64,000 nucleotides of DNA from assembly GCF_001719125.1 (NCBI RefSeq), contig NZ_CP017006.1:1998384-2062383 (forward strand), written 5' to 3'. Positions 5,218 to 7,804 of this stretch are shown here, piece after piece (position 1 is the first letter of the stretch; every line of letters begins with the position of its first letter). Origin of the DNA: Sulfolobus sp. A20 (GTDB lineage Archaea > Thermoproteota > Thermoprotei_A > Sulfolobales > Sulfolobaceae). The translations under genes and the position numbers were made by a program. The notes below the pieces were generated by a model. That model searched no databases and was not told where the DNA came from. It worked only from the letters and a program-made list of their open reading frames with translations.

Positions 5218-5415
5218 ATGGGTTATAGAGTTTTCTCTGCAGGGCAATACAAAATACGTCAGAGAGGGGATAAGTATTATGTTTACTTTATAGAGAAGGA
5301 CGATAGGGGTAAGGTAAAGGAGCATTACGTTGGTCCTTTAGCTGACGTGGTTGAGTTTTACGTTAGAAATGGGGGGAGTGGGGCACTCCCCCACAGTGCG
5401 GGGGACGGGATTTGA
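5218..5415 (+). pseudogene. N-terminal fragment of an SSV-type tyrosine integrase (int(N)), running into tRNA-Leu
   Basis: Sixty-five codons. The stretch YYVYFIEKDDRGKVKEHYVG followed by PLADVVEFYVR closely resembles, from memory, the N-terminus of fusellovirus (SSV) integrases, which carry YYVY...VKERYVGPLADVVE. In such elements the attachment site lies inside the 5' part of the integrase gene, so integration into a tRNA splits the gene and leaves a short int(N) overlapping the tRNA 3' half. Here the frame runs 18 bases into tRNA-Leu on the opposite strand and hits TGA at 5413. The alternative frame through the tRNA (GFEPV) stays open much further, so an indel in the G/C-rich run at 5371-5392 is likely. 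No catalytic domain is present, so it cannot recombine DNA by itself. Confidence 0.75.
5372..5392. repeat. perfect GC-rich hairpin next to the tRNA 3' end
   Basis: GGGGGAGTG (5372-5380) and CACTCCCCC (5384-5392) are exact reverse complements around GGG. The hairpin sits four bases beyond the 3' end of tRNA-Leu, so it could help end or process the tRNA transcript, or be part of the attachment region. Read on the plus strand it encodes the last glycine-rich residues of the integrase fragment, and its G runs are a likely place for the frame slip inferred there. Confidence 0.5.
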
Positions 5416-5481
5416 ACCCGTGCAGGCCTTCGCCAGCGGAGCCTCAGTCCGCCCCCTTTGCCCTAGCTCGGGCACCCCCGC
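5397..5481 (-). tRNA. tRNA-Leu (anticodon GAG)
   Basis: An 85-nt class II tRNA. The acceptor stem pairs GCGGGGG (5481-5475) with CCCCCGC (5404-5398), with discriminator A at 5397. The T arm is CGGGTTCAAATCCCG. The anticodon stem pairs GCGGA with TCCGC around loop CTGAGGC, giving anticodon GAG at 5445-5443. A long variable arm (TGGCGAAGGCC region) is present, as expected for leucine tRNA. CCA is not encoded. There is no intron. Its 3' half is the target of the integrated element whose int(N) fragment overlaps it. Confidence 0.95.
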
Positions 5482-6656: not shown

Positions 6657-6665
6657 ACTTATATG
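6657..6665 (+). promoter_or_regulatory. TATA box for the aRF1 gene
   Basis: ACTTATATG at 6657-6665, preceded by GGTTAA, matches a Sulfolobus TATA box. Counting 24-28 bases from its centre puts the transcription start at about 6685-6689. The mRNA would therefore be leaderless at ATG 6687 or have about ten untranslated bases before ATG 6697. Neither ATG is in frame with aRF1 (see that entry). Confidence 0.55.
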
Positions 6666-6696
6666 GTGAATCCAATACACATTATAATGATTAGGG

Positions 6697-7804
6697 ATGA
6701 GTCTTTGACCAATATGTCCTTAATAAGCAGGAGTTAAAAACTCTGTTAAAGGAATTGAAGAAATGGAAAGCTCCTGCAACCGTCTTGTTATCTCTGTATA
6801 TCCCTCCGGGTAGACCAGTACCAGATGTGGTTAATCTACTAAGACAAGAGTATTCAATAGCTCAAAACATAAAATTAAAGAGAACTAGAGATGCAGTATT
6901 AGCAGCTATAGGTGCTGCCATAGATAGATTAAACAAGATACCTAAAGTGGAAGGTAACGGCTTAGTACTCTTTTGCGGAGAAAATTTTGATACAGAAGAC
7001 TTCAAATGCTTTATGTTTTCTCCTCCAGAAAAAGTTCCGCTGTTCTTCTATAGGACTGATAAGTCTTTTCACACCGAATTTCTAGAAGATATGGTAGAAG
7101 ATAGTGGTGTGTATGGTCTAATAATCATAGAAAGGGATCAAGCAACTATAGGCTTACTTAAGGGAAGTAGAATAGAGGTTCTAGAGGAGATGGAAGGTTT
7201 TGTGCCCGGTAAACATATGATGGGAGGACAGTCACAGAGAAGAATTGAGAGGATTATAGAAGAAATGTACGATAATTTTCTGAAAGAAGTTGGTGAGAAG
7301 GTTAATTCCTATTTCTTACCTTATATCGATAATGGAAAAATGAAAGGGGTATTACTAGGAGGTCCAGGATATGCTAAGGATGATTTCTACAAGGGGGAAT
7401 ATTTTGATTATAGAATAAAGAAGATGATAATACAGCCTCTAATTGATGTTTCAGATCAAGGAGAAGTTGGTTTAAGAGAAATGGTAATGAGAGCACAAGA
7501 TTTACTAAAGAATCAGCAATATGTAGAGGTCCAAAAATTACTGGAGGAATTAAAGTATCACTTAGCAAAAGATGATGGTCTTATAATTTACGGAATAGAT
7601 GCAATAAAAAAGGCTGTAGAAATGGGAGCGGTTGATTCGTTAATTATATATGAAGATAGTGGCGATGAAGTCGAGAAACTGTCCCAAGAGGCTGAGAACT
7701 ATGGTGTTAAGATATATGTTGTAAACGACGAAATTCCAGAGGCAGAGTGGGTTAGGAAAACCTTTAACGGTATTGTCGGTAAGTTAAGATATAGGATATA
7801 TTAG
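6697..7804 (+). CDS. prf1: archaeal peptide chain release factor 1 (aRF1), start reached only by a frameshift
   Basis: aRF1 recognises all three stop codons and triggers peptide release. The eRF1 signatures are clear: NIKL where NIKS is usual (codon-recognition domain) and MMGGQSQRR (GGQ catalytic loop), followed by domains 2 and 3. The open frame begins right after TGA 6698-6700 and contains no ATG or GTG; its first TTG is at 6755. Yet codons 6707-6757 encode [19 protein letters not shown], the first helix of the family, so translation must begin upstream. ATG 6697 reads ATG AGT CTT TGA C; a +1 slip on CTT gives [11 protein letters not shown] and a 368-residue protein of normal length, with GGQ at about 176. 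The alternatives are initiation at TTG 6755 (349 residues, truncated helix) or a one-base sequence error. Confidence 0.9.

Follow-up and report, generated by a model that had tools for sequence, protein, structure and literature searches.

A deeply conserved split reading frame in the aRF1 gene of Sulfolobus sp. A20 and its relatives suggests programmed +1 frameshifting

Introduction

Autoregulation of a release factor by a +1 frameshift in its own gene is a textbook case that is assigned to bacteria, with giant viruses as an odd exception. In the bacterial prfB gene, the shift site contains TGA in more than 99% of the cases and never TAG, RF2 cannot read UAG, and an AGGGGG sequence three nucleotides upstream of the slip codon pairs with the 16S rRNA (PMC12421855). 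The class-I release factor genes Mimivirus R726 and Megavirus mg280 have the site CUU UAG C or CUU UAA C, at which a +1 shift was observed upon expression in E. coli; autoregulation was proposed (PMC3521657). The same paper, published in 2012, describes aRF1 as an omnipotent factor and states that such regulation is absent from the archaeal and eukaryotic homologues (PMC3521657). Programmed frameshifting is known from the archaeal group to which Sulfolobus belongs, namely from the alpha-L-fucosidase of Saccharolobus solfataricus; however, in that case the direction is -1, the product is a metabolic enzyme, and release-factor feedback is not involved (PMC8037382).

A description of frameshifting in an archaeal aRF1 gene was not found in the open-licence literature, in line with an earlier note on this DNA that knew of none. 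An aRF1 shift is listed neither in a review of archaeal recoding (PMC8211752) nor in the portion considered here of a general frameshifting review (PMC5009743). In a large survey of frame transitions, prfB shifts located less than 50 nt from the start went undetected (PMC3711429), and the aRF1 case would therefore escape such a survey as well.

The aRF1 genes analyzed here resemble prfB in that a release factor gene contains an early stop codon, the predicted shift has the +1 direction, the slip codon is of the type NTT, and a C after the stop codon is favoured (PMC12421855). In most Sulfolobaceae, even the heptamer CTT TGA C is identical. In contrast to prfB, the archaeal stop codons are mostly TAG, the slip codons also include ATT, TTT, and GTT, and the predicted shift is located at codon 3-5 instead of about codon 25. 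In Sulfolobaceae, an SD-like stimulator appears weak or absent, and in three other families one is predicted in a different register. Furthermore, the homology between aRF1 and RF2 is confined to the GGQ motif (PMC3521657). By protein family, the closest precedent is the viral factor, which is also of the e/aRF1 type, but the viral gene has an additional read-through stop codon and a long 5'-region (PMC3521657).

Results

A split frame opens the aRF1 gene of Sulfolobus sp. A20

The window, i.e., the whole analyzed stretch of 64,000 nucleotides, contains the single aRF1 copy of the 2.69 Mb single-contig genome; the other match in that genome is a pelota-like paralogue with 30% identity. Membership in the class-I release factors was borne out, as the translation matches the model TIGR03676 (aRF1_eRF1) over its full length (E 1.5e-137, 458.7 bits versus a cut-off of 234.7) and contains the sequence GGQS. 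By this model and by PDB matches, the protein is of the aRF1/eRF1 type and not a member of the bacterial RF1/RF2 family, so that it would work like prfB only in mechanism.

The aRF1 frame is open from 6701 to 7801. It is immediately preceded by TGA (6698-6700) and runs through GTC, TTT (6704-6706), and GAC (6707-6709) to the stop codon TAG (7802-7804). The earliest ATG, GTG, or TTG in this frame is the TTG at 6755. One base behind the aRF1 frame lies a mini-frame that consists of ATG (6697-6699), AGT (6700-6702), CTT (6703-6705), and TGA (6706-6708) and is followed by C6709. A +1 slip at CTT would fuse Met-Ser-Leu to Asp-Gln-Tyr and yield a predicted product of 368 amino acids. The positions that the earlier note had assigned to this site are correct to the base. 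Direct reading confirmed its statements that the aRF1 frame lacks an ATG or GTG before the conserved codons and has a TGA at its upstream edge. The features of the locus, all on the + strand, are:

6659-6664 (+): TATA-box-like element TTATAT, centre about 35 nt 5' of the ATG, putative promoter element
6689-6696 (+): predicted 8-nt leader GATTAGGG, based on the conservation of GATYAGGG and on the position of G6689, 26-27 nt past the TATA centre
6697-6708 (+): three-codon opening frame ATG AGT CTT with stop codon TGA, read directly; ATGAGTCTTT is kept in 31 species, with TGA in 29 and TAG in 2
6703-6709 (+): predicted +1 shift site CTT TGA C, the same 7-mer as in prfB (PMC12421855), as the earlier note had pointed out; NTT-stop is found in 107 genes
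6707-7804 (+): aRF1 body after the shift, 365 codons plus the stop codon TAG at 7802-7804, based on TIGR03676 and on codon periodicity from the first codon onwards

A T/A-rich block at positions -39 to -33 relative to the ATG is conserved in the 31 sampled Sulfolobaceae species, and the best match to TTTATA is centred at -36/-35 in 19 of them. In archaea, the distance between the TATA box and the transcript start falls within a usual range, and this spacing led us to predict a transcript start at G6689 and thus a leader of only 8 nt. The motif GATYAGGG at -8 to -1 is present in nearly all 31 species, with the fourth base being variable. This leader is almost as conserved as the mini-frame, and it looks poor as a Shine-Dalgarno sequence. 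A leaderless start at the ATG at 6687, which indeed opens a 16-codon frame ending at TAA 6735 as noted earlier, was rejected: its A is a minority base in the respective alignment column, and it sits at the predicted transcript start.

Proposed mechanism

The tRNA-Leu(GAG), the reader of CTT, can re-pair on UUU with a G36-U pair. By analogy with prfB (PMC12421855), a ribosome would start at the ATG at 6697 on a very short leader, read Met-Ser-Leu, and pause when CTT with its tRNA-Leu occupies the P site and UGA has entered the A site. With plentiful aRF1, termination at UGA would release the tripeptide. With scarce aRF1, the pause would allow the P-site tRNA to slip one base forward onto UUU (TTT 6704-6706), and translation would resume at GAC and produce the 368-aa aRF1. 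In this way, aRF1 would limit its own synthesis. We assign a probability of roughly 0.86 to this reading, namely that aRF1 is made by +1 programmed frameshifting and limits its own synthesis.

The site is invariant in Sulfolobaceae

For comparison, aRF1 5'-ends were gathered from relatives within the genus and at each higher rank up to the phylum, and from named contigs. The Sulfolobaceae sample comprised 31 species from eleven genera, with aRF1 protein identities of 62-87% to the window. The ten bases ATGAGTCTTT are free of any substitution in all 31 species; they are followed by GA (stop codon TGA) in 29 species and by AG (stop codon TAG) in two (L023 and L035). Third codon positions just 3' of the site differ in about half of the species pairs, and therefore a lack of time for divergence does not account for this invariance. 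The 15-mer GGGATGAGTCTTTGA occurs exactly once per genome, always at aRF1, in 29 of the 31 genomes, and the reversed pattern, used as a control, gave a single match across all 31 genomes. The invariance and the uniqueness of the 15-mer indicate that the split frame at aRF1 is more than a chance arrangement. In a genome-wide search for other split-frame genes, the pattern ATGNNNCTTTGAY had 7 matches versus 13 for its reversed control and is uninformative on its own.

The earlier note had suggested aligning CTTTGA and the split frame across relatives and had named an extra base upon re-sequencing or a plain in-frame ATG in relatives as findings that would speak against its reading. The alignment revealed that ATG-AGT-CTT-stop is kept in 31/31 Sulfolobaceae; an extra base was found in none of the relatives examined, and a plain in-frame ATG in 0/31 Sulfolobaceae, while the genes of other families have, with few intermediates, either the split frame with different slip and stop codons or an ordinary start.

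The neighbourhood of the gene was also inspected. The 64 kb window contains a single tRNA gene, tRNA-Leu(GAG) at 5396-5481 (-), which is located about 1.2 kb from aRF1 and encodes the tRNA expected on the CTT slip codon. In 7 of the 11 Sulfolobaceae genera it lies within a few kb of aRF1, on either side (loci L310-L314, L316-L318, L020, L021, L025, L026, L029, and L031). This proximity may be a plain ancestral neighbourhood. In one divergent Sulfolobaceae genome (G010), ARAGORN reported a tRNA with the stop anticodon TTA near aRF1 (L323, 5150-5237, -), which is probably a mis-scored intron-bearing tRNA.

The layout recurs in eight families

Across eight families that belong to the order Sulfolobales or lie close to it, 107 of the sampled genes share the same layout, i.e., a start codon 3-5 codons upstream, an NTT codon, a stop codon, and the aRF1 frame. 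The families carry the labels of the relative search (f1 being Sulfolobaceae), and the names given for them follow record titles and the aRF1 protein tree. The layout is present in 31/31 genes of f1, 21/25 of f2, 10/10 of f3, 4/4 of f4, 4/5 of f5, and 35/35 of f10, and in one member each of f11 (1/3) and f12 (1/1). The typical forms outside Sulfolobaceae are:

f2 (Zestosphaera-like) and f5: GTG NNN NNN ATT TAG
f3 (Ignisphaera-like): ATG TCT/CCT ATT followed by TAG, TAA, or TGA
f4: ATG AGT ATT TAG
f10 (Desulfurococcaceae, e.g., Staphylothermus and Thermogladius): ATG GGT TTT TAG and ATG AGT CTT TAG

Among the 107 genes, the start codons are ATG (82), GTG (19), and TTG (6); for some f2 and f5 genes this choice is ambiguous, as GTG, ATG, or TTG is possible within one mini-frame. 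The slip codons are CTT (39), ATT (39), TTT (27), and GTT (2), the stop codons TAG (76), TGA (30), and TAA (1), and the following bases C (79), which makes for a weak stop context, T (25), G (2), and A (1). The prfB heptamer, which the earlier note had emphasized, is therefore the form of most Sulfolobaceae but not the limit of the pattern, as most relatives have ATT, TTT, or CTT together with TAG. Re-pairing is less good for ATT and GTT than for CTT and TTT, which counts against the frameshift reading. The use of all three stop codons is expected because aRF1 reads all three.

Four f2 genes are exceptions: an in-frame GTG is present in L151 and L152, and the slip/stop pair is TAT TAG C in L056 and L125. 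In f5, the single exception is L085, which retains ATT TAG C with ATA as the sole possible start; in L080 and L085, ATT or ATA takes the place of the start codon after GGGG. Two further aRF1 genes, L043 (G047) and L265 (G259), have neither a standard in-frame start nor an NTT-stop site, and other recoding, unusual starts, or sequence errors may be behind them.

Ordinary in-frame starts were found in Acidilobaceae-like f6 (15/15), f7 (4/4), Pyrodictiaceae-like f8 (16/17), and Fervidicoccaceae-like f9 (8/8), and in 56 of 57 Thermoproteota outside the order. Of the 107 shift genes, 82 lack any in-frame ATG, GTG, or TTG in the stretch from the preceding in-frame stop to the shift site. The remaining 25, mainly from f10 and f3, have such a start upstream, and therefore the shift is not strictly needed in those 25. 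The split layout and the ordinary in-frame start are largely alternatives to each other, with few intermediates. A protein tree of 115 aRF1 sequences required 5-7 changes between the split and the ordinary state, compared with about 34 with shuffled labels; one early origin followed by several losses fits this tree, and so does a history of a few gains.

Stimulatory signals and dependence on aRF1

The 16S rRNA of the window genome ends with GGATCACCTCA. For each family, the predicted anti-SD pairing of the 14 nt upstream of the slip codon was compared with that of shuffled sequence. The results were not uniform. In Sulfolobaceae, pairing was no better than in shuffled sequence (-5.1 versus -5.6), and there was no enrichment of an upstream SD motif; a prfB-like SD stimulator therefore seems to be absent or altered in this family, which counts against the frameshift reading. 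Pairing exceeded that of shuffled sequence in f2 (-9.1 versus -5.6), f3 (-8.4 versus -5.1), and f4 (-9.2 versus -5.7), with the SD-like stretch in a register other than that of E. coli prfB, and it was slightly higher than shuffled in f10 (-7.3 versus -6.5). Downstream RNA structure was likewise inconspicuous, as the mean MFE z-score was about 0 in most families, and z was -1.0 in the window. In Sulfolobaceae, CTT-TGA would have to be sufficiently slippery by itself, unless some other stimulus acts.

The lack of an obvious SD stimulator in Sulfolobaceae would also suit a +1 shift that is real but constitutive, with a fixed low output independent of the aRF1 level. This possibility is nevertheless unlikely. 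The site sits on a stop codon that is read by the very factor encoded, by a single gene copy, and a stop is maintained although the genes differ in which of the three codons read by aRF1 they use. This match between the stop identities and the range of the factor is the best evidence for feedback that the sequences offer, as a correlation and not as a proof.

The stop codon of the mini-frame appears to be maintained

In the aRF1 frame, the codons at the site of the 107 shift genes are always TTT followed by GAN, AGN, or AAN. TTT accounts for only 296 of 684 Phe codons (43%) in these aRF1 genes, yet it is the sole codon at the site; likewise, AGY accounts for 193 of 581 Ser codons (a third), yet a Ser after the site TTT is always encoded by AGY. 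As this pattern partly served to define the site, the counts do not amount to an independent test. Nevertheless, nearly all genes that lack an in-frame start fit TTT plus GAN, AGN, or AAN, the exceptions being L043, L056, L085, L125, and L265. The pattern is what would be expected if the stop in the other frame, whichever of the three, is kept.

The same region bears on the possibility of de novo initiation in the aRF1 frame at a non-AUG codon, GTC or TTT, located at the site or beside it, which would make the mini-frame a by-product. In favour of it, coding constraint begins at the site, and the aRF1 frame has no standard start there. However, the codon before TTT varies between families (GTC, GTA, GTT, GCC, GCT, GGA, CTA, ATA, and GCA), TTT differs from ATG at two positions, and such a start would not account for the retention, in 107 genes, of an other-frame stop and of a start codon 3-5 codons before it. 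We therefore consider a non-AUG start very unlikely.

Coding constraint begins upstream of TTG 6755

The TTG at 6755 is the first standard in-frame start in the window, and ATG-AGT-CTT-TGA might be a regulatory minimal upstream ORF, with aRF1 starting at 6755 or by re-initiation. Three results speak against initiation at this TTG and make the upstream ORF highly improbable. First, over the 16 codons from the stop to TTG 6755, pairs of Sulfolobaceae species differ on average by 0.24 at the first, 0.20 at the second, and 0.53 at the third codon position, and this periodicity indicates that the segment is translated in the aRF1 frame. Second, 14 of the 31 Sulfolobaceae species have no in-frame ATG, GTG, or TTG before the conserved Trp, and the next one is located 25-43 codons in. 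Third, a protein initiated at 6755 would lack an N-terminal segment that has an aligned counterpart in the solved aRF1 of A. pernix (3agk/3vmf). The earlier note had named initiation at TTG 6755 as a finding that would speak against its reading; the periodicity upstream and the 14 species without a start disfavour it.

That the frame is restored not by the ribosome but by an error in the sequence, by slippage of RNA polymerase, or by processing of the RNA has a minimal probability. An error or slippage would indeed look like a single-base discrepancy. However, the discrepancy recurs in 31/31 species with many single-contig assemblies, which rules out a sequencing error at the site, the run of three T in Sulfolobaceae is short for polymerase slippage, and neither idea predicts conservation of a stop codon.

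Discussion

The aligned genes directly show the split frame and how deeply it is conserved, the coding constraint that sets in right after the stop, and that three stop codons are used. We infer from them that the shift occurs, that it takes place at the CTT codon, and that its rate would be set by the aRF1 level. The parts of this reading differ in strength: a frameshift at aRF1 is very likely real, and feedback by aRF1 on its own shift is likely. The RF2-like +1 frameshift that the earlier note had put forward thus gains support from the conservation in 31/31 Sulfolobaceae and from the 107 genes.

A more specific version can be formulated for Sulfolobaceae: a distinct type of shift that acts on codon 3 of an mRNA with almost no leader, lacks an SD push of the prfB type, is governed by an omnipotent factor at any of the three stop codons, and originated independently of bacterial prfB, no later than in the ancestor of most Sulfolobales. 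We regard the chances for and against this version as even.

If the frameshift reading is true, more than 100 species would carry the same site in an unrelated archaeal factor, a striking convergence on the seven bases of prfB. It would be the first conserved +1 recoding in cellular archaeal genes found in the literature searched, and the start annotation of an essential gene, aRF1, would be corrected. The shift should be easily testable, as Sulfolobus is genetically tractable. The variation between the families in slip codon, stop codon, and SD motif would offer a natural series for what a +1 shift needs on the archaeal, eukaryote-like ribosome.
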